NCBI GenBank assembly: GCA_903813345.2
Contig: CAIIXF020000003.1
Location: 10,000,218-10,064,217, forward strand
Direction of reading: 5' to 3'
Length of the DNA: 64,000 nt
Source: Owenia fusiformis
Lineage: Eukaryota > Annelida > Polychaeta > Sabellida > Oweniidae
Shown: positions 839-64,000 of the stretch, piece by piece
Position numbering within the stretch: position 1 is the first letter of the stretch
How the letters are laid out: each line of letters begins with the position of its first letter
The notes under the pieces: generated by a model
Told to the model about the DNA's origin: nothing
Seen by the model: the letters and a program-made list of their open reading frames with translations, nothing else
The model's database searches: none
Made by a program: the position numbers and the translations under genes

Positions 839-2169
839 GATACGACGTCAGATACTGTACATCACGGCATTTTACTGCATTTTTACATGCGTACTTACTT
901 TTAAAACCGCAATATCTAGACAGCAAAATCATATTTTTCTAGAATTTTTCGTCATCAGTTGAACACGTATGTCCATGAAATATTTTGCCTAACAGAATTC
1001 CAAATAACTGATTTGGGACTTTTTAAATGAGAATCACGCATGCCTTATTATGCGACTTTCTATGCTAAAACCGGGTGTGGACTGTAACATTTTGAAGAAA
1101 AATGATTTTAATTTTAAACGAAAACTGAAGATAACTTTTTCATTTCTTAACGGATCTTTTTCAGATTTTCAAAATATTTAAATTCACCATTTTGAAAAAG
1201 ACAAACAGATTCTTTGTGATGACGTCATAATATAACAATGCTAACTTAACGCTTGTATTTATGCAAAAAAAGTGTGGACAGGCAGAATTTCGTACCAACA
1301 AGATATATATTTTGATCAATTAAACATTAAATCGTTTGAAAGGTGAATTATTCTTTTTTGATTCTTGAAAGGCATATCGTATTCTTTATTTGTATCAAAA
1401 AATTATATCATTTCGATTAAAATTCAGTCTGTAAGAAGTATAAATTGAAAGAAATATGAAGTGAAGCCATGTGAAAAATTCACAAAATTACGTTTCATTT
1501 TTTGAGTTCAAATATTTCTAATTAAGGGATAAACATTCAAAACTTTCCAATGTTTCAGCATGTTCTTTTAAATATACCCCTTACTACATACAATTAATTT
1601 CATTTAATTTGAACCAGTATATACTGAGATAGACATCATTTTATCACCGCAACCCCAAGTGAAGCCTTTACAAAATAAGACGTTACGCCGTTAGCGTATT
1701 ATATGTTCTCCTTTATTATTCATTGCTTTAAATAAATAAAACTAAATATTCGAGTTTGAAATAAATTACAAATAATGCATTTAACAATCCTTAATATCTT
1801 CCCGTCTGTGTATATCAGTTGAATATGACAAGGGGTACTGTGAAAGAGTCTAGAAAGACGGTGCGACAACGAGAGCGCAGGGCCGAAAAGCGCGACAAAG
1901 AAGAAAACGGGTAGGGTTTGAAATGTCTACTTTCTGGTGATTCTAATTCTGTATATCGTGACTCAACCTTTTTGAATATAGAATTGTATTGAAGCGCACA
2001 TTAATCTGAACAAAACTTGAAGTTTTTTTAGAAGATTCCACGAATATTAAAACTTTTGCAATTACTTGGAGGAGCATTGCGCATATTTATCGCGTAAATC
2101 TTTGCATTTTATCGGTAAAATGAACAATTACAATGTTACGCCGTGATGTACAGTATCTGACGTCGTATC
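839..2169. mobile_element. Non-autonomous DNA transposon, 1.33 kb, 30 bp TIRs, inserted in the LINE
   Basis: Bases 839-868 and 2140-2169 are perfect inverted copies of each other, beginning gatacgacgtcag. The element is flanked by aat at 836-838 and at 2170-2172, a possible 3 bp target duplication. Removing the element plus one aat joins the LINE frame exactly (Ala-Asn-Ala-Phe). No transposase ORF was seen inside. The superfamily is unknown; a 3 bp duplication is compatible with Harbinger- or CACTA-like groups. Confidence 0.85.
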
Positions 2170-2172
2170 AAT

Positions 2173-3612
2173 GCATTTCTCCATCAATTTTTACAGAAAT
2201 TTCGTCACAACATTGTTGATCAAACTCTACCAACTTGTCAAAGAAAAACTGATAACATGCTAAATGAAATTGATCTTTCACAGCAGTCAATAAATAAACA
2301 TTTGAGGGAGCTTAAATCAAACAAAAAGGGGGGTGATGATAACATTACAAATAAAATGCTTAAACTGGTGGCAGATTCACTTGATGCAGAACTTCATAAA
2401 CTTTTTAAACTCATTCTTACTAAAGGCAAATTTCCTAATTGTTGGAAGCAGGGCATTATTGTCCCTATTTTCAAAAATAAATCCTCAAAAGTTGACCCAG
2501 GGAACTATCGGCCAGTTTGCCTTTTAAGTAATATTTCCAAAATTTTTGAATGCGTCATATATGATTCAATATTCAAACATGTGTCATCTAACAATCTTTT
2601 GTATCAGAACCAATCCGGGTTTTTACCTGGGCATGACACTCAGAAACAACTTGTATCTATTGTAAATATGATTACTTCAAATTTTGACCATAATATTTCT
2701 ACTAGAGGGATCTTTCTTGATATTGAGGGTGCGTTTGACGGCGTCCCCCACTACTTACTTCTCCATAAGCTAAAATCATACGGTATCTGTGAGAACATTA
2801 TTAATCTGATAGGGTCCTACCTTAATAACAGAAAATTAAAAGTTAGGGTGAATGGTACAACTTCAATAAATTCAGATACTCTATATGACAATATTGATGG
2901 GACAATGGAAGGGACTCTAGGGACAGGAGGAAAGGATTTAGGGGGGTTTGACAAAGGAGTAATAAATTGTGGGGTTCCTCAAGGGTCAATATTAGGTCCC
3001 CTGTTTTTCTTACTTTATATCAATGACCTAGCCGATGCAGTTTTAAATAGCACTCTGTACCTTTATGCTGATGATAGCTCAATTTTTCTACCTGTCAAAA
3101 AGGAGGACTCAGTTCATGAAACTTATCTAAAACTCCAAAGCGATGTTAATAGAATAGAGATCTGGTCAAAGACTTGGAAATTAAAATTTAAGACAAGTAA
3201 AAGTAAGGAAGTGTTTTTCCAGTCCAAAACTAGAACTCCACTTGCTCAAATTCCTATTGTGTTAAATGGTGACTCTATCCCTTTCACCAATAGTCACAAA
3301 CATCTTGGACTTATTTTAGACAAGGCTTTAAACTTTGAAGAACACATTAACAGTATAATTGTTAAATATGTAACAGGATGTTGAACCCACTTATGGCACT
3401 AAAACATAACTTAAGATCACAACATCTAGAGAAGATTTATATGGCATTTATACTACCTCACTTAGAATATGGGAATATCATTTTTGATTGTGCAAACTTA
3501 AATTTACTTTCTAAATTGGATAGTATTCAGTATAGGGCAGCATTGATTGTCAGTGGATGTACCCAAGGTACAAATGCAACCAAAGTCACCTCATGCTTAG
3601 GTTGGAGGTCCC
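2173..3612 (+). pseudogene. LINE reverse transcriptase, frameshifted
   Basis: A 375-codon ORF from 2257 carries the RT motifs in order: a YRPVCLLSN-type motif, NQSGFLPGHDT, motif A FLDIEGAFDGVPH, motif B GVPQGSILGPLFF, the motif C box YADD at 3064-3075, then the HLGLILD thumb motif. The frame is open upstream to 2171, so the ORF-track Met is not a real start. A frameshift near 3370-3378 moves the rest (MLNPLMALKHNL to CLGWRSL) into another frame. Odd feature: a Gly-rich stretch of about 28 residues just before motif B that LINE RTs usually lack. The catalytic Asp residues remain, but the gene is broken by the shift and by the insertion at about 3620. Confidence 0.9.
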
Positions 3613-34543: not shown

Positions 34544-36136
34544 ATGTCTAAGAGAGATGTAGAGCATTGTAAATCCATACAGGAGAGATTCAAATTCAAG
34601 ATAAAGGGCGAATACTTCTATGATGGTGTACTATTTGACGAGGTGTCCATAACCAAAGGAACCCTTCCGGCGATCAGGGCCTTAGAGATGCGTGATGGCG
34701 ATATTCTCATAGACACTTACCCCAAATCAGGTGAGTTAATCATTAACGCCAGAATCTTGGTATTTAGTGATTGCAATATGAACACGTGTCCATTTTTTCC
34801 CAGTTAAACGTTGCAGTTCAAATATTCAAAATAACATTTTTTGTTCTTAATGCAAATTTTTTTATACATGCAACCAACATTTTTATGAAGGCCTCGGTTA
34901 AGCTAAAATATCCCATTCAATAACTCCTATGGGATTGATTTAGGATGTGCTCTGTAACATATTTCTACTGACTGATCCTTCTGAAATGATTTTGTATCTA
35001 TCCCCATGATGGTATTCCAATGCTAATATATAAGTAAATGATGCACATCCCCATGTTAAGTCAATGGTTTATATTCCTATGTTAAGTCAATGGTGCATAT
35101 ACCCGTGTTTAGTCAATGGTGCATATACCCATGTTCAGTCAATGGTGCATATCTCAAAGGTTAAGCCAATATCCTTGCTTCTAAATCCTAATTTCCTCAG
35201 AAGAACATCGGTTGATTAAGCTAACCTCAACCAGTAGAAATATACTGAGCATATCCGAAATCAATCCTAATTGGTTTGAAAAGGGGTTCCTAAACACAAT
35301 ATTTCACTCGATTATCAATTTTCCTTGTTACATCCAATATGTAGTGATGACAAATGTGAGATAGCAAGATCTATATTCATATATACCAACATGTTCTAAT
35401 TTCAGGAACAACATGGATGATTCAAATTGTGTCCTTGATTCTAGCTAAGGGAGATATTGACAAAGCAAATGAAAAACCAATCCATTCGAGAATACCATTC
35501 ATTGAAATCTTTGGTGAATATAAGCAAGTTGATGATATCCCAATTGGAACGCAACGGTGCATGAAATCGCATCTTCCATTGCGCATGCTCCCGAAGCAGA
35601 CGACAGAAAAGAAGGTCAAGGTCATATATGTTGCAAGGAATCCAAAAGATACAATTGTGTCATACTATCATTTTTACCGCATTTGTAATGATTACAAATT
35701 TGAAGGCACATGGGACGAATTTCTAGATATGTTTATTGCAGGATATGTCGAATGGGGAGATTGGTTTGATCACGTGACACCTTTCTGGAGTGGAAAACAG
35801 GATGACACCTTCCCAGAATTATTTTTTGTAACATACGAAGCGATGCTCAATAACCCTTTCGAAGCAATTAAAGATGTCGCTGCTTTCTTGAATGTGGAAT
35901 TAGATGACAAAACCATTAATAAAATCGCTATTGAATCAAGTTTCAAAAGAATGAAAGCCGATCCATCTTTAAATATGAAGAATGAAGAATGGTTTGATTT
36001 TAGCAAAGGTGAGTTCATGAGAAAGGGGAAAGTTGGCGACTGGAAAAACTATTTCACGGTCAATCAGAGTGAGCAATTTAATAAACTCCTTGCTGAAAGA
36101 ATGGAAGGCTGTTCTCTGAAATTCCAATATGAATAG
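34544..36136 (+). CDS. Cytosolic sulfotransferase (SULT1-like), 2 exons, 305 aa
   Basis: Transfers sulfate from PAPS to small alcohols, phenols or amines in the cytosol; the substrate cannot be read from sequence. Exons: 34544-34730 and 35406-36136, joined in phase 1 inside the Gly of the 5'-phosphosulfate loop TYPKSGTTW. Further motifs: KSHLP with the catalytic His, VARNPKDTIVSYYHF binding the 3'-phosphate, a C-terminal RKGKVGDW, and the KxxxTVxxxE dimer motif as KNYFTVNQSE. Length matches the family (about 290-305). The ATG at 34544 is preceded by caacaag and gives a standard N-terminus. The gene appears intact. A polyadenylation signal is at 36200. Confidence 0.95.
35038..35170 (+). repeat. 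Tandem repeat, ~29 bp unit, 4-5 copies
   Basis: The unit is approximately ccatgttaagtcaatggtgcatata with gradual change between copies. It lies in the sulfotransferase intron. Confidence 0.85.
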
Positions 36137-41631: not shown

Positions 41632-44600
41632 ATGACATCACTTCCGGTGGATTCGCTGACCAACTGGTTGACAGGTTTGATGATAGCAACACTGTTGATC
41701 TTAATAACAATTAAATATCTTGATTCAAAAAGATGGAAGTTACCACCAGGACCATTTGCTTGGCCAATCATAGGTAAACTTTGTTTAGGCAACATTTAGC
41801 TACATCAAATCCAGAAATCTCCGGTCACTTTCTTTATCAGGAGAGCTGTCAACACATCTGATAAGAAGTGTTCTTAGCAGCTCTGGTGAAACTTGATGCT
41901 ATGTTGGTCTAATACAAGATGCAGCCTACTTGTAAATAAAATACGTTATCCATGTACGTAATATATGGTTCAACAAAAAACAGCAACTAAAAAACAACAA
42001 CTAAATATGAGAAACTTATGTGGTATATGCCATGTTTATGTGTCTGATCATATAATCTTCAAATTATCCATCAATTTCTTGAAATTGGCGAAATTAAGGA
42101 AACCAGAAAACACATTTAATGAAAGGGCGGTGTTTATAGGCTGTATGAAATGCCCCTGCATTAACGCTCACATATATGAGTTTTAAACATTAATTTAGTA
42201 GACTAAAGTGTTGATACGAAATCTCAGTAATAGTACCAGTTAGGAGATAAGGTGATGTCCGATTTAACATTACGATTGCTGGATATGTGGTAGAGCCCAT
42301 GGTATCATATATCATTTTAAAGCTCATCCAAAGTTACATTGATTCGCCAACTATGAGGGTTCAACTCACAAATGGCAAAAAGTTACAGGCATTTCAAAAC
42401 TTAGTTCATTTCAGTATCCTGGAGATAGCCCTGACCTGAATGTGACCAAAAATATGGATGCTATTCTCGAAGATAGGATGGATATTGAGTTCTAAAAGGA
42501 GGACGTTTAGGGTAGATACTCCAAGGAACCTCTTCTTAAATGCCAAAGGTTTTATGAGGATTACAAAACGCCACATCCCTATTTGAAGCGCGTTAAGGTC
42601 AAATATGGAAAGTACAGTATTACTGCTGTTAACATGGCGGCTAAGGAGACACACCGACTATTATTTTTGTGTAAAACTGACTTTAATTTTGGCCAAACAC
42701 TAAATTTTGAAATGCCTGTAACTTTTTCCCATTTGTGAGTTGAACCATGATACTTGGCGAATTAATGTAACTTCGGATGAGCTTTAAAATGATATATGAC
42801 ACATACTATGGAGACATTGGTATATGTCTGCCTAGGGGGGGGGCATACTTTCGGGACACTCTGTACTTGTGAAATGTCATCGACAAATTCAAAATTGTGA
42901 AAAAATTTAGGGTACATGCCCCCCCCCCCCTTCTCCCCCATTAAAATTAATACATTGATTTGAGCAAACAATTTGCTTTCCTATGCTCCTCACCCCACAC
43001 CCCCTATAGCTATAGTGACATCGAGAGTGACACAACACACAATTATAATGCTTGGAAATTTAGTCAATAAACATGTTTTAGTTCACAAAAACAACATTTT
43101 ATTAAAAATATAAGTTGATGACTTAGTACATTGTTATAAACTCAAAGTAAAATGAGCTGAAATTCAACATGCAAATCTGTTTCATTATTAAAATATGGTT
43201 ATCCTCATATGTAGGTAATGCTTCAGTTCTCATGGCAACTCCAGACGACAACACCGGCGCAAAAAGAGTATGGGATTTGACAAAGAAGTACACGAGTGAC
43301 ATAATCTCGATGCGAGTGGGGCCACGACCTGCAGTAGTTCTGCATAAAATAAAAGATGTCAGAGAAGCTTACTCAAAAGAAGCATTCCATTATAGGCCAA
43401 AAGCTGCTGAGCTAAGTTTCAAAGGGATTCTCGGGAATAATGGTCAACGATGGAGAGAACAGCGACGATTCGCATTGCATACTCTACGAGATTTTGGGCT
43501 GGGGAAAAATAGAATGGAGGCGGTTATTCAATCGGAGCTTGACTATTTCATTGCTGAGATCTCATGCCATAATAGCAATCCCTTTGACACGATCGATCTC
43601 GTCAGTAACGCCACCGCAAATGTTATCAGCTACCTGGTTTTTGGGCACAGGTTCGAATACACCGATGAAACATTTCTGGAAATGACTCGAATGGTGTCTC
43701 AGTTATTCTTGTACGCAAGGGAAGTTAGTATACAGCAATATATTCCCTTTTCCAAATATTTACCATTAAATGGGAAATCGAAACTTGACCAGGCACTGGA
43801 CAGACTTTTCAATGGAATATACAGACCGGAGGTAAGAACATTTCGTTCAGCGCAATTAGAAGGAATACACTGAACGGAATTGCTAGAACAATGAAAAACA
43901 CTCCTCAGATTTGTAAATTAAGTTATATTATTCCTGAATTAGGGGGATCTACATTAATTCTATGAGTAATCAGAACTCAGTTTTGTGTTTGACTGTTTTA
44001 GCTTTTACGTAATGATAACTGTAGCAATGTTTGAATAACTGACTACATGACTACATTTCAATATGTCTTAACAAGTTAATGACACTGGCGGATCTTGGGG
44101 GCGGGGGGGGGAGCAGGGAAAAAAATTGGGCCCAAAAATTCTAAATTTGGGCCCACATCTCGGTTTTAGGGGCCCACATTTTTTTCCGCTCAAGCGCCGA
44201 AGTTTTTCCTTAGCTCTGAAATTTGGGCCCCTCCTTGTTGGTTCCTAGATCCTCCCCTGAATGATAATGTACGATGAAATGATTCCAGGTTGATCAGCAT
44301 CTGAGAGATTATGACCCAAATAAAATAGAAGATTACATCTCGGCATTCATAAAAGAAATGAAGGAGCATGCAGGTACAACAGAACAACATTGGTTCACGG
44401 GTAGGTGTTGCCACATCTTCTAAACGCAGGGCTCCAAAATCCAGCTCATATATACACATCTCATTGGCTTGTGATGTAAACCAAAACAACCCATGCGCCA
44501 ATAAAGTGTGTATTAATGATTAACTTTCCTGCTATTCAAAACTTACTTGGAACTATACTATTGGATCACTATGGGAAATTAAAACAGAAAATTCTTGGGA

Positions 44601-49928: not shown

Positions 49929-50459
49929 TACTCAAGGGGCGAGGAGGAAAATTCTCAATAAATGGTGTATAGTTGGTTTGGCAGTATTTTCAGTTAGGGG
50001 AGAGTCTTGGATGAAATTTCCACCTGGGTGATAGCTTCGCAGAGTGGTAGGAAGTTCTTTTTTTTGAGGAGTTAGCCCCCCACCCCCCAAAAACACCCCA
50101 CCCTGGGGAAAAAATTATTCACACTAAATAACCTTAGATATTTTGATGTTTGTAAGTGACATACATAGATATTATATATATGAATAATTTGCAGTATTAT
50201 TGATGCTGATTACTCCTAAAGAATTTGAATATCAGTACAAAGTGTGTACCCCAGGGGGCAAATTCGTGACTCATTTTCTTACTGTTTTGATTCTTACTTT
50301 TCAATTAGACACTGTAAGAGGTTGAAAAAATTCATGTGAAGTGCCCAATAGCAGGGTTAGTAACCCTGAAAGATGCAAAGCCATGGAAGAAGTAGGAGCT
50401 GAGAAAAAAATTGTTGATTTTTAGAAAAATGTGACATTTTTTACAACTGGATTTTGTGT

Positions 50460-51548
50460 ATGACTATAGCTGACCCCTATAGTTTCTAGATCTACCCCTC
50501 TATGATGATATTTATGGTTTTATAGTGTGGAACTAAGATGTAAAACATAATTTAGATGGGTTTTAAGGAAGTTAAAGGTTTTAAACAAGTCCAAAATTTG
50601 AAAAATTGTAAATATAAGGTTTCAAATTTACGAATTCCAGGTATAACCATGGCTGACCCCTATAGTTTCTAGATCCATCCATCTTTGATGATATTTATGC
50701 TTTCATAGTGTGAAACTAAGATGTAAAACATAAATTACATGGGTTTTAAGGAAGTTATAGGTTTTAAACAAGTCTAAAATTCGAAAAATTGTAAATGTAA
50801 GGTTTCAAATTTACGAATTCCAGCTATAGCCATGGCTGAACCCTATAGTTTCTAGATCCATCCCTCTTTGATGATATTTATGGTTTTGTAGTATGGAACT
50901 AAAGATGTAAAACATAATTTAGATGGGTTTTAAGGAAGTTAATGATTTAAAACAAGTCCAAAAGGACGATTCTCGGTTTGGAGAACGAAGTTCATCAATC
51001 TAAATGAGCATTATCCCTGCTTCGGACAAATTTGATTTTTTTTACATAATATAGATTTGAATGTCTTCTTTTGAATAGTCATAATTTAATTTGGGTAATA
51101 TTTCTAGATTTTTCGCAAAAAAATATTAGCGCAGTACACTGATGAACTTTTTTCCTCAAATCGAGACTTGTATTTTATTGAATCGGTCTAATTGAGCGTT
51201 ATCCCTGCTTCAGACCAATTTGTTATTTTTACATCTTGTAGATTTAAATGTCCTCTTTTGAATATTCATAGTTTAATTTGGGTAATATTTTTATATTTTT
51301 CATGAAAAAAATTATTAGCCCAGGAGACTGTTCTCCAAACCGAGAATCGTCCTTTGAAAAATTGTAAATATAAGGTTTCAAATTTACGAATTTTAGGTAT
51401 AGCCATGGATGACCCTTATGGCTTTTTCATCAATACTTCTTTGATGAAACATATACTTTTAGAGTGTGAAACTAAGATGTATTTTAAGGAAGTTTAAGAA
51501 TTTTAACAAGTGCAATATTTGAAAAATTGAGAAATATCAGGTCTCAAA
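50460..51548 (+). repeat. Four tandem ~186 bp units, left arm
   Basis: Units begin near 50470, 50655, 50840 and 51400 with ctatagtttctagatc(c) or a diverged form. They run through gatatttatggttt, gaactaagatgtaaaac, ggaagtta.aggttttaaacaag and ggtttcaaatttacgaatt. The third unit is split by an insertion at 50958-51355. Confidence 0.8.
50958..51355. mobile_element. MITE nested in the third tandem unit
   Basis: The ends aggacgattctcggtttgga and its complement are inverted. Two inner half-copies (gagc.ttatccctgcttc.gac) show it is itself a duplicated structure. It is absent from the right arm, so it arrived after the arms formed. Confidence 0.75.
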
Positions 51549-54794: not shown

Positions 54795-56009
54795 TAACGT
54801 GAATTTGAGACAAATTTTCGAGATCAATTTTTCAAATTTTGCACTTGTTTAAAACCTTGAACTTCCTTCAAACTCACCTTATGCATCTTTTACATTTTAG
54901 TTAAATACCATAAGGGTCATCTTTAGCTATACCTGAAATTCATAAATTTGAAAACTTACATTTACAATTCTTCAAATTTTTGACTTGTTTAAAACCTTAA
55001 ACTTTCTTAAAATTCATTTTTGGTATGTTAAATCTTAGTCCCACACTCTAAAACTGTATATTTAATCATAGAGGTATGGATGTAAAAACCATAAGGGTCA
55101 GCCATGGCTATACCTGAAATTCGTAAATTTGAAACCTTATATTTACAATTTTTCAAATTTTAAACTTGTTTAAAACCTTAAACTTCCTTAAAACCAATCT
55201 AAATTGTGTTTTACATAATAGTTCCATACAGCAATACCATAAGTATCACCATAGAGGGATGGATCTAGAAACTATAGGGGTCTGCCATGGCTCTACCTGG
55301 AATTCGTAAATTTGAAACCTTATAGTTACAATTTTTCAAATTTTGGACCTGTTTAAAACCTTAAACTTCCTTAAAACCCATCTTAATTATGTTTTACATC
55401 TTAGTTCCACACTTTAAAACCATATATATCATCATAGAGGGATGGATCCAGGAACTATAGAGGTCAGCTATAGTCATACACAAAATCCAGCTGTCAAAAA
55501 TGTCAAATTTTTCGAAAAATCAACAAATTTTTTCTCAGCTCCTACCTCTTCCATGGCTTTGCATCTTTCAGGGTTACTAACCCTGCTATTGGGCACTTCA
55601 CATGAATTTTTTCAACCTCTTACAGTGTCTAGTTGAAAAGTTAGGATCAAAATAGTAAGGAAATGGGTCACGAATTTGCCCCCTGGGGAACACACTTTGT
55701 ACTAATATTCAATTTTTTTAGGAGTAATCAGCATCAATTATACTGCAAAGGATTCATATATATAATATCTATGTATGTCACTTACAAACATCAAAATATC
55801 TAAGGTTATTTAGTGTGAACAATTTTTTTTCCCGGGGTGGGGTGTTTTTGTGGGGTAGGGGGCTAACTCTTCAAAAAAAAGAACTTCCTACCACTCTGTG
55901 AAGCTATCACCTAGGTGGAAATTTCATCCAAGACTCTCCCCTAACTGAAAATGCTGCCAAACCAACTATACTCCATTTATTGAGAATTTCCCTCCTCGCC
56001 CCTAGAGTA
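54795..56009 (-). repeat. Right inverted arm with four tandem ~186 bp units
   Basis: Units begin (minus strand) near 55460, 55275, 55095 and 54915, the mirror of the left arm. The ORF 55442-55636 is repeat sequence. Confidence 0.8.
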
Positions 56010-56067: not shown

Positions 56068-57027
56068 TCAAACAAGAAAAATATTCACAAACGTTTGGCT
56101 AAACAAACCTGCAATTAAGTCAACTTTTGATGGAGAGACAGAAGAGACCTCTTCACTTTTGGAGGTAGAAGCAGACGACAAGTGCTCTTCAAAGCTTGAG
56201 GTAGATAAGAGCTCTTCAGAAGAGGAGGTTGCTGAGGTAAGGGCTATATATGATGGAAGGAAACGCTTCTTGCTTGGTATCTCATTTGAGTAGCCAAGAT
56301 TTTCTGAGGAAGATTCACTCGTGTGTTGCCTGTAATAATAGAACACATAATTTAGTTTTTTGAATCTCATTAGTATATCTATCTGTTTACATCCTGCACT
56401 GCAGTAAATATAGTATTGCATCAGTACTATTAGAAAATGTACCCATCTTATATTCCAGTACATTCCAGTATCAATGCATACGGTAACTTTACAGTGCAGT
56501 ATCATTTATCTAAATCCTGTGTAATATAACAAATACATGTAAGAGAGAACGATGGGACCTTATAAACAACTTCAATTGTAGTTAAACAAGTTATAGATCA
56601 ATTTACTTTTTTGAGGGGAATTAATATACAACTCAAGATGGCAGTTCACTGATAGGGAGTTTTATGTTCAAATCAATTACCTCTTATGTCGTGTATTTCT
56701 GCCTTTCATGTTATCTTCTGAGTCACTTTCAGGTGTAACTGTATCTGCTGTACTTAAATGCCAAGTTCTTGTCTTGGTACTTGGATCTGCTGAACTTGAC
56801 TTTGCAGTACTTGACTTTGCGGAACTTGACTTTGCGGTACTTGACTCTGCTGTACTTGACTCTGCTGTGCCTGACACTGCTGTACTTGTAGATGGTATGG
56901 GGTCATGGTATCTGGCCCGCTTTGCCCCCTCTCGAGGTTTCTGGTGTATCATCTCACACTTGTTGCCTTTGGAACATGTGCCTTTATCCCTAAACTCTTC
57001 ACAGATGAGCACATGTCTTTTCTTGCA
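56068..57027 (-). CDS. CCCH zinc-finger protein, last two exons (ZC3H3-like)
   Basis: Exons (minus): 57027-56681 and 56329-56068, joined in phase 2 with good borders (acag| and |gtaatt, then attacag|). The first encodes KKRHVLICEEF...CSKGNKCEMIH, a perfect C-x8-C-x5-C-x3-H finger, followed by a Ser/Thr/Ala repeat (AESST/AKSS). The last encodes KKRFLPSYIAL and a Ser/Glu-rich tail. Finger, linker and the LPS(Y/F)I(A/S)L box match the C-terminus of ZC3H3, a nuclear mRNA-polyadenylation and export factor; this identification is from memory. The earlier exons with the other fingers were not found in the window. The gene ends 59 bp from the 6.1 kb foldback element. Confidence 0.7.
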
Positions 57028-57754
57028 CTGTAAAACAGTAAAATTGGAACAAATAGTTGAACCCATATAATCCAGTTTTTTAACATAGATCTCTATGGTA
57101 GGTTGAAAAATGAAATAAAAAATGAAAAGAGGTGTTAAGATTAGAGTGCCATCTATGATGAGTATGCATTTTAAGGTACTTCTGTTCTTTCACAAGTTCA
57201 AAAACTTGGAAATGTCTTAGATACTTTGATTGTGAAATTGTGAAAAGATTTTAGGTTATGATAGTTGTGAATATTTAAAAAATTCTCACCATGCGAATGT
57301 GTCTAAGTAATGGGCAATGATAGGATTGTTTTATTTAAGGTAATCAGTCAAAAAGGTTACCGATGCGACTTAATTTTTGACAAAGGAAATCCTGGTGAAA
57401 AGAACCTAAACAGTGGAAAAAAATCTTTTAAATGACCATGTAACACTTGACTTTAGAAGACTACTAGTGGAATGGGTGATAGGTGTTTTTCGTGCGATGT
57501 AGTCTAAAATTTTTAATTGTTATAATCATTTAGGCCACCTAAAGCTCCATCCATTCATGAATTTTCAGTTTCCAATTTTTCAGCGTTAAGCGGCTGTTCC
57601 ATTTTACCCCCCCCTGAAAAACCAATAGAGGGGTATGTGTACAAATGCAGCCATTTCACCATTATACTTCGAGCAATTCTATTGAAAGTTCATGGGAACA
57701 TACATTGTATAATAGACATGTATAATGCAAAATATGAGTGTGAAAGCTCTACTT

Positions 57755-57768
57755 GTTGCCATGGTAAC
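57755..57768. promoter_or_regulatory. X-box (RFX-type palindrome) gttgccatggtaac
   Basis: A perfect 14 bp palindrome matching the RFX consensus half sites GTTGCC and GGTAAC. A sister site is at 58145. It may regulate, or may simply be part of a repeat. Confidence 0.45.
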
Positions 57769-58144
57769 CACTCGTTGAATTATAAAAATGACTGAAAAAG
57801 GGCGATTTTCGTACATTCGGATTGCAGTAAACTGAACTTATCTTGTTGTAAGAGATTGATTGATCAGTCTAAATATGCTTAAAAACTTCCCAGATGTGTA
57901 TGGTACAAATCTAGGGGAAAAGTAAATTTTTGGGATGTTTCTTATATTTTACATGATTTTTTTAATACTCATACCCTCATTCAAGACGAGAAAGTGATTA
58001 TTTCTCCAATGTCTATTAAAATGTCAAAATGAGTTTCTTATAGTATACTATGTAGGCTATCACCAATATTTCACTGAATAATTAATAGGAAAACTCAATC
58101 TACAGTGAGGAGCTAAGATACACTTCAGAAAAAATTTTGTAACT

Positions 58145-58259: not shown

Positions 58260-60714
58260 CTAGCTGTCTAGAACATCTCCACCCTCAACACTTCCCAAGA
58301 AGTCTGCATCTTCAAGTACAATAGGCTCAGCAACCTCATCAAGCAGATCTACAAGGTCTTTTGGTAAGACGGGTAAACTAGACCATTGTGGCTCAATGTT
58401 ACCATTGGTATCAAGTTGCCAGCCATGCAACGTGGCATTTGGGAGTTCACTGACAGCAATGTGTGATTGTTTCCAGATATAGCTTTGATAGTTACTCCTT
58501 TTCAACTTTTGAATTATAGAGTCTCTACAGGGGGGTAACAGTGACAAGTCAGTTCCATCGTAAGTCAAAGCATCTCCTGATTTCTTGGGGGAATATCTTT
58601 GTTGAAATAGTTCATAGCGAAGTTTGTTGATGTTCCTTAGCTTGGTTTTTCTAGAGTACATTTTGCAAACATAGTCCTCAGCAGTAGATTCCATTTGGTT
58701 GGTAACCTCAACAGTATTTCCCATTGTAGTAAACAGTTTCAGGAAACGATTCCTTTCATCTGGAGGACCTCTGGTAAGAATTTTGAGTGGCTTTATCTTG
58801 CCTCTGCGAATGAATGCACTAGTGCTATCGCACCCCGTGAAAGCATGGAAGCTGGGCAGTGCTTCACAAAGTTGCTGGCCCAGGCGGGAGGCTATTGCTT
58901 GGATGTCAAGGAGGCGACGCCCATCTCCTTTTCCAGTGTCAAAATATATCGGTACATCGACCCTGTCAGCATACCTTAGGAGTATTAGAAAGACATCGGT
59001 ATCAAGGGATCGAACAATTACTGGTTTTCCATGTCTTGCAGCGAACAGCATGTGAAGAATTATCTTTGTATCTGCTTCTTCTTGGTTAGATGCTAGGTCA
59101 TTTACTGGGGAAGTATAAACCTTTTACCATCACTTGTGAGTAGAATTGTATTCTCTTGGTCTGAGAAGTAGATGTTTCTTCCCTTCAGATCACTGGCATA
59201 CTTCTTGGTTTGCCATTCACGTAACAGGAACTTGATAAGTTCCTCTTTATTTTTGCCACATGTTAGGAAGTTATTCCATGATTTTGATGGGGTTTTAGTG
59301 TGGGCTCCCTTCAGGATAATTGGATCTGACTGCCCCCTTTTGTTTCTCTCAAGATCTTTAATGGAGTTTTCATGGTAGGAATCGGTTACAAAATGTACGT
59401 TCTTGGATTTTGGTAAGCGTGTGAATATGTCTCTTGCAACTTTACCAAATGTTGGTGCTATTTTTTCCATTTGATAGAAACTCATATTTCCATCCAAGAT
59501 AGTTATTGATTCAGATGGGGGAGATGGAATACTGTCATTCCCTTGCAGCTCATGAATGAGTGTTGACTTTGGTGTTTTTGCTAGAGAGCCATCAGGTAGG
59601 GCAAGAGGCCAAGGAACAGGACCCATGCAATATCCCATGAGCCTCTCAAGACTAATCTCACTGTTTTGAGATACATTAAGTAGTTGGCCAAATAGGTTTC
59701 TTGTGGCGCTGATTTCAACAACCTTATTTTTTGAAGTTGTCATTTTCTTGGTCACAGCAGAATTTGCAAATGTTGCGACTTTCATCTTTTTTATGCTATC
59801 GTGAAACTTAAGTTCTGAGTTTTGATCTCTCAGTCTATCAATGAATTGTTCACTTGCTTGGTAACCTTTCTGTAATGCATCAGTCAGCCCTTGAACTTCT
59901 GCTGGGGCTGGCAAACCAGATGATACACAGTGAAGAGCAGGCTCATTGATGTCAAATGGGTTGATGAAGCTTTTGAATGCCTGCATTACTGACTTTACAC
60001 CAGCTTCAGATGTTGTTACTTGGGCTAATGAGTTGTCTCTATGGAGGATATCGTCTGAGTCTCTCATTCCAGCTATATCAAGGGCAGCCTCTGTATATAG
60101 ACCTCTCTGTGTTCGTGTAACGCACCAGCGCTGATATGCACCCTTGTTCCTACTGAAACCAACAATACATGTACCACCTTTAGATTTTGCATTGCAATTG
60201 ATAGTTTGTTCTATGGTAATGTCCACAGGATTTCGTGAGCATGATACATCTGATCTTGAAACAGAGAATCCATTGTTTGAGATGAGCTCTGTTGCACCAG
60301 GATGTGTCTTATCCAGGTTGAGAAGGGTGAGAAATTGGTAACAGTGAAATCGGGCATAATTTTGATGGTCCATGGCAAAGAATGCACTATTCAAAACCAG
60401 AGCCCCTCACAAATTTTCCAATGGTGCAGAAATAAGAACACAGCGAATAGAAAACACCTAACATTACTATCACAGTACAGTATTTTTGAAATTGCCATAC
60501 AATGTTCAGGGCCTTTTTGGCTGCTGCCAGATCAAATGTTACTAATGTGTAATGTTGGCCCACCTCAGCTGTTCCTTGCATAGCAATATTCAGGCACTCT
60601 TGAACTGTAGCATTCTCAGTTATTGGGTGGTTTATTGGAGGAAGATAGTCTATAACAGACTGAACTGGTACATTAGTTGAGCCCTTGCCTGTTAGTGACA
60701 CCCAACCTGCCCAG
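58260..60714 (-). pseudogene. FEN1/XPG-like 5' nuclease region of a large orphan protein, frameshifted
   Basis: Likely exon 3 of the minus-strand gene that begins at 64000 or beyond: acceptor ctgtag at 60725-60715, phase 2, giving N-WAGWVSLTGKG. Order of motifs: VIDYLPPINHP and HYTLVTFDLAAAKKA; then (second frame, 60394-59102) YARFHCYQ, IEQTIN and a nuclease-like N region ILDGNMSFYQ ... VTDSYHENSIKDLERNKRG; then (third frame, from about 59100) an I region NQEEADTKI ... SLDTDVFLILL ... HAFTGCDST. The order of acidic residues (D, D, E/D, DTD, GCDS) is that of FEN1/XPG nucleases. Frame breaks near 60390 (probably with loss of ~100 residues) and 59101 make this copy doubtful as a working gene. 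Similar proteins recur in many invertebrate genomes; I know no agreed name. Confidence 0.65.
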
Positions 60715-60738
60715 CTACAGTAGAGATGCTGAGCTCGA

Positions 60739-60852
60739 TTGCCGTATGGTATTTCATTTGACGTACCTCACGGCAGTTGCCGTATAGTGTTTCAATTTCA
60801 TGATATTCCATCCTAAGTACCATACGGCAGTTGCCGTATAATGCTTCAATTG
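60739..60852. repeat. Three ~50 bp units with palindrome acggcagttgccgt
   Basis: Perfect copies at 60770-60783 and 60824-60837, a half copy at 60739-60745, each followed by ata(g/a)tg.ttcaatt. They lie 59 bp upstream of the plus-strand start codon and just inside the minus gene's intron, so they may be a shared control element. The core gcagttgc contains a MYB-type half site. Confidence 0.6.
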
Positions 60853-60910
60853 TATACATACTACTTCCTTTACCTTTTATCGCCCAAAGAGAGCAGACAA
60901 TATTATTAAA

Positions 60911-62066
60911 ATGTCACAAACAAAGAAGAGACCTTCAACTGGACCACAAGCGTAAGTACTGTACTTTGAAAAATACTACATTCGATGTATGTGCCTGATA
61001 TTTTGCCACGCGTATTCATCAGATTCATTCCAAAATTCGTGCTTAGTGCTAGTTTTCGTGTTTCAAATTCCTGACATCTAAATAAAAATTGTAACTGACG
61101 AATGAAATTAATTAAATAACTGATAGATTTATAGACAATTGCATTGTCCAAGCTAAGTTTACCGTAAAATTTTCCATGTGCATGGCTGCATGCTCAAACC
61201 GGAAAGCACCTTGCATAATTCAAATATAAAATACGATACGATCTTATTCGAATTAATATTCAGATATTCAACTCAATATCTACATGTACATAGATGATCA
61301 ATGATCCCTTGACCGCTTGCACTATATATTGAACAGCTGACAGTCTGACACTCACTTGTCACAGGGCAAGATGACCTCTAACATGCCAATATATTAAACT
61401 GATTTGCCCTTGCATTTAAAACAGGGATTTAAAATGACCGTCCTCCCTTGACTTTCTGTCACTTCGCCGTTATTATACACATTGATGAAACATCCACTTA
61501 CAAATGCAAAGTAAACTTTGTGTTTTATTATCCGATTCAAGATCTAAGATATTCTAATTCGTAAATTGCAACTGAATTAAAAGTAGAATTTCTGTTGAAA
61601 TGCGGATGATCCGGGGACGATTATCAATTACGCTTTTCAGACGGGACTTCCCCATATCGCTTCACCGAAGGTTTCGGTTATTCCTACTTCTATGTTTCCG
61701 ACATTCATACTTTTAATTTAATTCTTTTGATTTAGAAATAAAAACTGGAAACACCACAGGGGGCCAATTTCTCATGATTATGAGCCCGAGCCTAGGAAAC
61801 GGGCCCAGGCGAAGAAAGATAGGCTCACTGGACTGATCAAACGAGCAGACCAGTTGTGCACTAAGACCAGAGGCTCGATATTTCTGAGGTACGTTGATGA
61901 GGCGGGGAATGCCTTTGTGTATTCTCAGGACGAAGAAACATTTGTGAAATACCAGGAGGAGGGGATACATCCAGAAGTAGGGGGGGATGAACGGAGATAC
62001 AACAACAAGGGGGCAGCTACCCACATACTTAGTGAGAAGACGAAGAAAGCTATCGTTCAAGAGCAG
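60911..62066 (+). CDS. Novel gene with MADS-box-like segment, first two exons
   Basis: Exon 1 is 60911-60951 (ATG, MSQTKKRPSTGPQA, donor gtaagt) and exon 2 61736-62066 (acceptor tttag, donor gtatca), joined in phase 2; 124 codons in all. Exon 2 has a basic stretch PRKRAQAKKDR, then GLIKRADQLCTKTRG, SIFLRYVDEAGNAFVYS and EETFVKYQEEG. The spacing follows a MADS domain (GL-KKA-EL..., a beta-strand, a turn at Gly/Asn, ...LLKY). This match is by eye. If the exon 2 donor is not used, the frame ends at 62126. Both exons lie inside an intron of the minus-strand FEN-like gene. Later exons were not found. Confidence 0.55.
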
Positions 62067-62097
62067 GTATCATGGATCGTGAAATATTTTATTGTAC

Positions 62098-64000
62098 TTA
62101 TTTTCAACTATGGTATCATCTATTAAATCTGTCATTTTGCCGTTTCGAATTTTTTGTTCACTGATGATTTTTTTTAATCGTTTCTCTACGAAGCCTTTTA
62201 TTGATTTGTTTTGTATTGAAGCAAAGGCTGGATTTTCGTCTGGATTTTTTATTTCTTGAATCTTATCATCAGTCAACGGCTTGTTTTTCCATTGATTTGG
62301 TGAAAACATTGGTTTATTTTGTAGGGGTTCATTTTCAATCGTGAAGGAAACAATCATGGTCACTACACTAGCGTTGAATTTTTTCTTTGTGCTAATTGAC
62401 CAGGTCTTTTTAAGTACCTGGTTATTATCGAATGCCATTAGTATACTAGTATCATTCCCTTGGGTTTGTTGGTCCACTATCTCTATTGTATTTTGCCCAA
62501 GATTTGTGAGCCATTTTCTTACTCTATCATAGGAGGCGTATGGGCCTGTTCTGTTAAGAACGGTAAGTGCAATTTTGCTGCCCGTTAAACTGTATAAAAG
62601 TACCGACTCTCTAAAATGGATTGGGAGAACACTGTTCAAATAGGTAAGGTTTAGGATGGACTCCACAGTTTTGCACATTTTGTACGCCATGTTTCTGTCT
62701 TGGTCTGGATCTGAGAAATACAAGGGTCAGTATCAAGATACACTGAAAACCATTTACGTATCTTTCCAATTGCCGATAGAAATCATCTTCGTTCACTCGG
62801 CTCCCGTCGGTCGAACACAGTAAAGACCGAGCGTGCGAAAATGGATAGGAATTATTTGAAACTTTTTCATTTTCATCGATTCAAACCTAGGATTCTTCAT
62901 CCTAGATTTAAACCCACTTTTGCATTACTGGTGTAGTCATATTATGGAGATGGCGATTAATGGCGGAATTTTATGAACGTCGTATAATGACCCGAATATC
63001 AACTCAAAGCTCTATTGAAATCTGGTTAACTGCAATAGAAAGAAAAATTTGAATTCGTTTATTCCGTTTCACCATTTTGGAAGATCTGGTAGGCCTATAA
63101 ACACTGTCATTAGAAAAGTATGTTGCACTAAAATGCACAAACTGAACATGGAACATTATAAACATTCCTTGTTAAATTATTTTGCGCGGACATTTGACGC
63201 GTGATAAAGCATTTTGAAATACCTAAAAATAATTCGCGCACAAGTTTTTAGTTGTTTTTCACGTTTTCTATTCACATAAAAATCGTTACATATGTTTGGC
63301 GGGATATGCTTTATATAACGTAAAACAAGCGTATGTAGAGCAAACATGAAGTAGTAACTACTTGAAGTACAAGCATCATGCTGATTTAAAACGTGTATTC
63401 TAGGGTTTCTAATGCATCTGGATACTGACCAGGGACATTGCTTGATTTAAACGTATAGTCCATTGGAACACCAGATATGCTTAAAAGCAATGTTGCAAGT
63501 AGTTTTGGGCATGACGTGAAATAATCTGCATTGCTCAGGCGTAATTTTTCAAAATCCAAATCAATGTTTGAGTTGTTAGAATATGTTTTTATTTCCTGTT
63601 TAATAATTTTCCCCAGTGCATAGATTAGGTTCTTTAAATATGACGATGGCAACGTCTCCATTTGGTTCGACAAGTCTTGGTGATTATCTCCAAGATCAAG
63701 AATAGTATTTGTTGTTTGTATAGATATATCATTGTCTTTTTTTCCTTCAGAATTGTAACTATGATCGTGATTAACATGTGATAGGTTTTGTTTTCTTGCG
63801 GGTCCGTTTCCACCGTTTTCTAATTCAACGTTTTTGATGCAGGATTTACAAAATGAAAGCGGCTTTAGTTTGTGCCTTTTTCGAAAACTAAAAAAGTCTA
63901 TTTGGGCAAGTTCACAAAGACGGTCTCTGGTTGAAGCCTTTATATATTTTGAGTCAATCAGTTGGTGCATTTGTTCATTCTTCTCGCCATGAATATTTTG
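62098..64000 (-). CDS. N-terminal exons of the large orphan (FEN-like) gene, 5' end beyond the window
   Basis: Exon 1 here runs from the window end to 63430 (donor GTCAGT, phase 1) and exon 2 is 62710-62098 (acceptor tttctcag; donor GTACAA, phase 2). The predicted junctions give NVP-D-PDQDRN and then EN-N-WAGW, in frame with the exon at 60714. The frame is open up to the right edge, so the true start lies outside. Exon 1 has a Cys pair FCKSC, a charged Ser/Asn-rich linker and SLLLSISGVPMDY-like hydrophobic text; exon 2 has ESILNLTYLNSVLPIHF and YASYDRVRKWLTNLG. No standard domain was recognised. Related proteins with this arrangement recur in invertebrate genomes. Exon 2 ends 31 bp from the plus-strand exon. 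Without the GTACAA donor, the frame would stop at 62070. Confidence 0.6.

Follow-up and report, generated by a model that had tools for sequence, protein, structure and literature searches.

The analysed stretch of the Owenia fusiformis genome (assembly GCA_903813345.2, contig CAIIXF020000003.1, here C3, positions 10,000,218 to 10,064,217 of the forward strand, i.e., C3:10000218-10064217), referred to below as the window and 64,000 nt in length, probably holds a damaged cut-and-paste DNA transposon. The element is ~6.4 kb in size and most likely falls into the Academ (AcademX) superfamily. In its single 1526-amino-acid protein, a DDE transposase core of the RNase H-like type, related to Pfam DUF6589, would form the N-terminal part and be joined to a C-terminal FEN/XPG-type nuclease. 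Motif order, conservation and profile comparisons confirm the prediction of such a nuclease domain in the open reading frames (ORFs) 58260-59123 and 59102-60406 of the minus strand. The initial annotation had seen here a nuclease within a large orphan protein, perhaps linked to a mobile element. The link is borne out by long inverted repeats, 3-bp target duplications and near-identical copies, and the nuclease proves to be the C-terminal part of a transposase and not a free orphan enzyme. The element represents a new transposon family in this genome, which appears ordinary in kind and best fits a named lineage.

Ends, copies and recent movement of the transposon

Seven near-identical copies, together with their flanks, were compared within the genome (498 Mb in 525 contigs searched). 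The five undamaged copies measure 6408-6433 bp, and the ORF for the 1526-amino-acid protein is open in three of the seven and interrupted in four. The terminal inverted repeats (TIRs) have a length of ~518-521 bp with ~97% identity, as determined in copy c1a, and begin with TAGTGGAATGGGTGATAGG. Exact target duplications of 3 bp were found at six of the seven copies, namely AAG, TAC, TGA, TAG, AAA and, for the window copy, GTA. Copy c1a is located inside a tandem satellite of ~0.8 kb, and the other units of the satellite represent the target without the insertion and with a single AAG, that is, an empty site. In the seventh copy (c11, at C11:18482500-18492700), the right end stops short of the last bases and the flank is duplicated over ~18 bp or more; this copy may be the record of an aberrant insertion or repair.

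The search of the genome with the right repeat provided 14 matches at 96-100%, which account for the two ends of each of the seven copies, as well as six further matches that are diverged. When the nested insert of the window copy is excluded, the seven copies are 98.98-99.83% identical over the aligned positions and three of them retain the open frame; therefore, the element has moved recently. The ORF at 58260-59123 shows at least 140 matches in the genome, including seven with 99-100% identity, three of which lie in the open 1526-amino-acid frames. The family had been proposed to be widespread and unnamed: these matches support the former for this genome, whereas the latter is not supported, as the family is best read as part of Academ/AcademX, a superfamily that has a name.

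In the window, the repeat search and the copy comparison place the right TIR (~520 bp) at 57465..57987 of the minus strand, with its outer end at 57465 and TAGTGGAATGGGTGATAGG read inward. The flank comparison locates the right-end target duplication GTA at 57462..57464 (unstranded), with its partner at the left end beyond the window. The left end is found at 67873 in extended window coordinates, and the left inverted repeat occupies C3:10067568-10068090.

The nuclease domain

The motifs on which a FEN1/XPG likeness had been proposed are all present on the minus strand and conserved, both in an alignment of 10 sequences (A1) and in a wider one of 21. The N-region-like part (59333..59506), recognized in both alignments by the first two Asp and a basic Lys/Arg cluster, includes ITILDGNMSF (59477-59506) and the basic segment VHFVTDSYHENSIKDLERNKRG (59333-59398). 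The I-region-like part (58776..59090), recognized in the wider alignment and by hhalign, includes SNQEEADTKI (59061-59090), SLDTDVFLIL (58980-59009) and FHAFTGCDSTSAF..GK (58776-58850), which provide Glu-x-Asp, Asp-x-Asp and Gly-x-Asp, as well as a Lys that aligns with the helix-turn-helix loop of FEN-type nucleases. The GCDS of the window is replaced by GCDY or GCDF in some members of the family. The relatives in both alignments were picked for their resemblance to the window protein and for the length of their open frames, and certain rows are near each other; the rows are therefore not independent. A1 omits L026, which is 98% identical to L023; for the wider alignment, 7 of 28 further ORF matches were taken, with L063 standing for L045 from the same place.

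Within the nuclease region, the A1 sequences have pairwise identities of 22-60% and share 29 invariant columns, among them D57, D94, K102, R106, R109, E196, D198, D221, D223 and D279. The invariant columns (in A1 numbering) cover all the positions which match the metal ligands of human FEN1, and the Lys/Arg cluster. In the wider alignment, where one row is without the N region, D57 is Asp in 18 and Glu in 2 (L060 and L061) of 20 rows, and D94, K102 and R106 are found in 20/20. E196, D221, D223 and D279 are each conserved in 21/21 and D198 in 20/21, with Asn in L053. Instead of the poor conservation that would be at odds with a nuclease, the acidic residues are thus near-invariant in the 21 sequences, all members of the family from this genome. 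Lys289 is also present in 21/21, and hhalign places it, by sequence alignment alone, at the helix-turn-helix (H2TH/H3TH) following the last Asp.

The best profile match of the domain is the 5'-3' exonuclease domain of bacterial Pol I (PF02739/PF01367 type). An hhalign comparison of the 21 sequences with 12 such domains scored 45.5 (probability 76%; E 2.3e-5, a single-pair value that lacks database calibration), which none of 200 column shuffles reached (top 21.6). The score of 45.5 uses all 12 Pol I sequences, of which a first filter had passed 4; the scores against Pol I span 40.2-45.5. A1 alone scored 36.2, again reached by 0/200 shuffles (top 22.7), and the global mode gave a probability of 87%. 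The local match covers the I-region-like half of the domain, where it pairs E-A-D, D-x-D and the Asp that precedes the G-x-G-K/T-A helix-turn-helix stretch, together with this stretch; the N region is aligned with Pol I in global mode only. The window-family domain also differs from Pol I in having no polymerase fusion.

Six archaeal FEN1 sequences scored 27.2-29.5 and the Asteroid protein of the host (L040) 26.5-26.7, in both cases above all of 100-200 column shuffles (top 22.7 of 200 for 27.2, and 24.9 of 200 for 26.5). The control pair FEN1-Asteroid scores 20.8 in the same setting, and because this true pair reaches just that value, profiles as thin as these can be expected to give low hhalign probabilities. 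In detail, the domain shares with FEN1/XPG (Rad2) the order of the acidic residues, the basic K/R cluster and a weak profile match above the shuffles, but it is joined to a transposase. Asteroid (PF12813) has ILDGN.. and FDGGYE..K..R stretches resembling the N region of the window family; unlike the latter, it is a host gene with neither transposase nor inverted repeats.

Scanning of viral contigs with A1 resulted in 46 stretches, none confirmed as a relative, and no FEN1 relatives were found when sought in viral contigs. The respective scan of bacterial and archaeal genome contigs gave 56 stretches, with one locus (L042). This locus contains fragments of the same protein, including a cysteine-rich tail, in a record titled Bathymodiolus gill symbiont, and it is probably mussel host DNA within a bacterial assembly. 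A literature search in one collection, based on the motif letters and on DUF6589, found nothing relevant.

The transposase core and its probable relation to Academ

The initial annotation recognized no known domain outside the nuclease. This is not supported, as that part of the protein resembles the core of a DDE transposase, and relatives match Pfam DUF6589. The N-terminal half looks like an RNase H-like DDE transposase related to DUF6589, with D111, N112, D114, D342, H370, D584 and E588 invariant in 7/7 aligned transposase sequences. In hAT, P, MuDR, Kolobok and Dada, a C/DxxH motif is located between the second D and the E (PMC9587614). The corresponding motif in the window family reads GxxH (H370).

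The Pfam cut-off for DUF6589 (PF20231), a domain to which Pfam assigns no function, is 27 bits. Nine DUF6589 places are listed in the genome, eight of them above the cut-off. One of these, C3:3010745, scores 30.1 bits and adjoins the family match C3:3008891. L059 (1952 amino acids) has DUF6589 at 896-1189 with 45.8 bits; it also contains the nuclease motifs of the family (GCDYVSSFKGFSK) and ends in a tail rich in cysteine. L060 and L061 resemble L059, with Glu for the first Asp. Among six full proteins scanned, L023 reaches 21.6 bits, below the cut-off. The ORF of L058 (2395 amino acids, cut at the edge) has a DUF6589 region, GCDY nuclease motifs and a cysteine-rich tail as in L059, and the two loci (C11:14704000-14713900 and C3:26991500-27000500, respectively) are 99.5% identical in DNA over 7.2 kb. 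A cysteine-rich C-terminal stretch, CXC or Cys8-like by eye, occurs in 9 of the 10 first-fetched relatives and also in L059-L061; Pfam names no domain there.

Academ and AcademX have reportedly been described by Kapitonov and Jurka in 2010 and by Kojima in 2020. According to the Repbase description, the nuclease of AcademX is of XPG type and Academ proteins contain a Cys8 zinc finger. The window family resembles Academ/AcademX in its terminal inverted repeats and its length of several kb; it differs in the absence of a Cys8-type tail and in its long TIRs of ~520 bp. The 3-bp target duplications and the nuclease-bearing transposase are further likenesses, since PMC10045372 gives duplications of 3 or 4 bp for AcademX and of 9 or 10 for AcademH, and ties these lengths to the nuclease and the helicase encoded by the two lineages. 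Membership in Academ (AcademX) is therefore likely, based on layout and 3-bp duplications and on a match to Academ by description, not by sequence.

Several observations weigh against parts of this reading. The Cys8-type tail is absent from the window family and also from L022. In the Pfam scan, the window protein has no match to DUF6589, and hmmscan does not list the domain for L058 either, although the genome scan gave that locus 50.2 bits. The Pfam models XPG_N, XPG_I and XPG_I_2 match no ORF of the window and no scanned relative. The FEN1 match by itself is weak (probability 4-8%), the hhalign probabilities, apart from that of the global mode, fall short of what is usually taken as confident, the single-pair E-values are uncalibrated, and a VapC-type PIN profile also beats its own shuffles. 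HMMER with A1 finds no solved structure; this test is weak because Asteroid, a known XPG-like protein, likewise finds none. Finally, at copy c11, which is without the final right-end bases, the duplicated flank is longer than the 3 bp of the other copies.

An alternative, which we consider unlikely, is that the DUF6589-type elements form a superfamily separate from Academ, in which the FEN-type nuclease was gained independently. The description-based membership, and a link of AcademX to XPG that is likewise description-based, would leave room for this; yet the 3-bp duplications, the nuclease-bearing transposase and the Cys8-type domain in nine of the ten first-fetched relatives agree with the description of Academ. 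A nested DUF6589-like element of the window, described below, is without a nuclease and has 5-bp duplications, which fall outside the lengths of both AcademX and AcademH in the available part of PMC10045372. On the other side, the length of the nuclease-bearing element is near the mean of 5565 bp in the 100 curated Academ elements of bivalves (PMC10294476).

It is improbable that the nuclease-like domain is a remnant of the FEN/XPG fold, catalytically dead and serving solely to bind the transposon ends or branched DNA. The broken state of the window copy, the Glu in place of the first Asp in L060 and L061 and the Asn in place of D198 in L053 could be read in this way. However, the metal-ligand positions are acidic in nearly every row, in relatives down to ~22-30% identity, which binding alone would not need.

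A domain of another PIN-like type (VapC or NYN) is more improbable still. The profile of 12 bacterial VapC-type PIN proteins scores 16.3, above 100/100 of its own shuffles (top 13.9), over only 21 columns, and a weak NYN_YacP match (E 0.23) appears in 1 of 10 members. This score is far under those of the Pol I exonuclease and of FEN1, and in the alignments the G-x-D..G-x-GK stretch falls on the helix-turn-helix region of the FEN type; a generic PIN domain was set aside on the distance between the VapC-type and Pol I scores. The large single ORF and the many diverged relatives might suggest chance duplication of a non-mobile gene, either of the host or for an orphan repair nuclease; this can be dismissed, being refuted by the inverted repeats, the 3-bp duplications at differing sites, the dispersed near-identical copies and the empty site.

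For the preferred Academ-type transposon with a fused nuclease, Tn7, where TnsA complements TnsB, offers an analogy. The DDE core would cut and join the 3' ends, and the FEN-type domain would cut the other strand or trim branched, flapped or gapped intermediates after strand transfer. The point of likeness is that a DDE enzyme would share the work with a second nuclease; TnsA differs in its restriction-enzyme fold and in being a separate protein. Both domains are presumably active.

More broadly, and only as a tentative and rather doubtful proposal, the DUF6589-type transposases may define a large group of transposons whose second strand is cut by a fused nuclease of FEN type, a Tn7-like two-nuclease scheme within one polypeptide, and the accessory enzyme may set the length of the target duplication. 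The nuclease-bearing family has 3-bp duplications and the nested DUF6589-like element, in which no nuclease motif was seen, has 5-bp ones; because one family is compared with one, this contrast establishes no rule.

With the assignment given here, a puzzling orphan protein becomes a recognizable mobile-element enzyme, and Pfam DUF6589 is connected to nuclease-bearing DNA transposons. The three near-identical copies with open frames are material for studying the role of the FEN-type domain in transposition. In annotation, proteins with HA(F/L)TGCD call for caution, as they are likely to be derived from transposons and not to be repair genes.

The window copy, its nested insert and other features

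The window copy spans the full length of the element, but it has suffered a deletion and a frameshift and is interrupted by a nested transposon. On the minus strand, the C-terminal part of the transposase (amino acids 1240-1526) is found at 58260..59123 and comprises the I-region-like block (EEADT, DTDV, TGCD..GK) and the C-terminus. The middle part, from about amino acid 818, is located at 59102..60406 and includes the N-region-like block (ILDG, TDSY..K..ER..R), as well as the block VDITIEQT with the presumed catalytic Glu (60173-60235). A frameshift near 59120 splits these two ORFs. A DDE-like fragment with the GxxH motif (amino acids 572-684) follows at 60378..60717, where the presumed second catalytic Asp lies in YTLVTFDLAAAKKALNIV (60498-60551), and ~412 bp of the element are gone near 60390.

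A second DNA transposon, with the TIR CAGTAGAGATGCTGAGCTCG and the 5-bp duplication TAGCT, is nested at 60718..64000 of the minus strand and continues to 65100 beyond the window. Homology to the first element ends at 60717, restarts at 65101 and finishes at 67873 (extended coordinates). The ORF fragments 62070-62726 and 63386-64000 belong to the insert and are separate from the nuclease protein; a single protein running through 64000, as had been assumed, is ruled out by the nested transposon. Truncation of the first element at 60717 was also considered and is ruled out by its left inverted repeat and the element pieces past the insert.

The nested insert is 98.5-99.2% identical to L067 on C1, an element of ~7.2 kb with TIRs of ~69 bp at 87% and the 5-bp duplication ACATT. 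The 829-amino-acid ORF of L067 has DUF6589 at 25.1 bits (E 8.9e-6), slightly below the cut-off, and no nuclease motif was seen in it. DUF6589 is thus recognized in the transposase core of L059 and C3:3010745 above the cut-off and in that of L023 and L067 below it, whereas the window protein is unmatched.

Beside the right end of the transposon, a minus-strand ORF at 56677-57189 shows serine/alanine repeats and a zinc finger resembling the CCCH type, for which every Pfam match is weak and under the cut-off. On the plus strand, a frame of 407 amino acids at 2161-3384 resembles, by eye, a reverse transcriptase of the long interspersed nuclear element (LINE) type, and, again by eye, the frame at 35360-36136 looks like a sulfotransferase and that at 43151-43873 like an exon of a cytochrome P450. 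Two arrays of a 183-bp tandem repeat are located at 50458-50963 and 54926-55468, apparently in opposite orientations.

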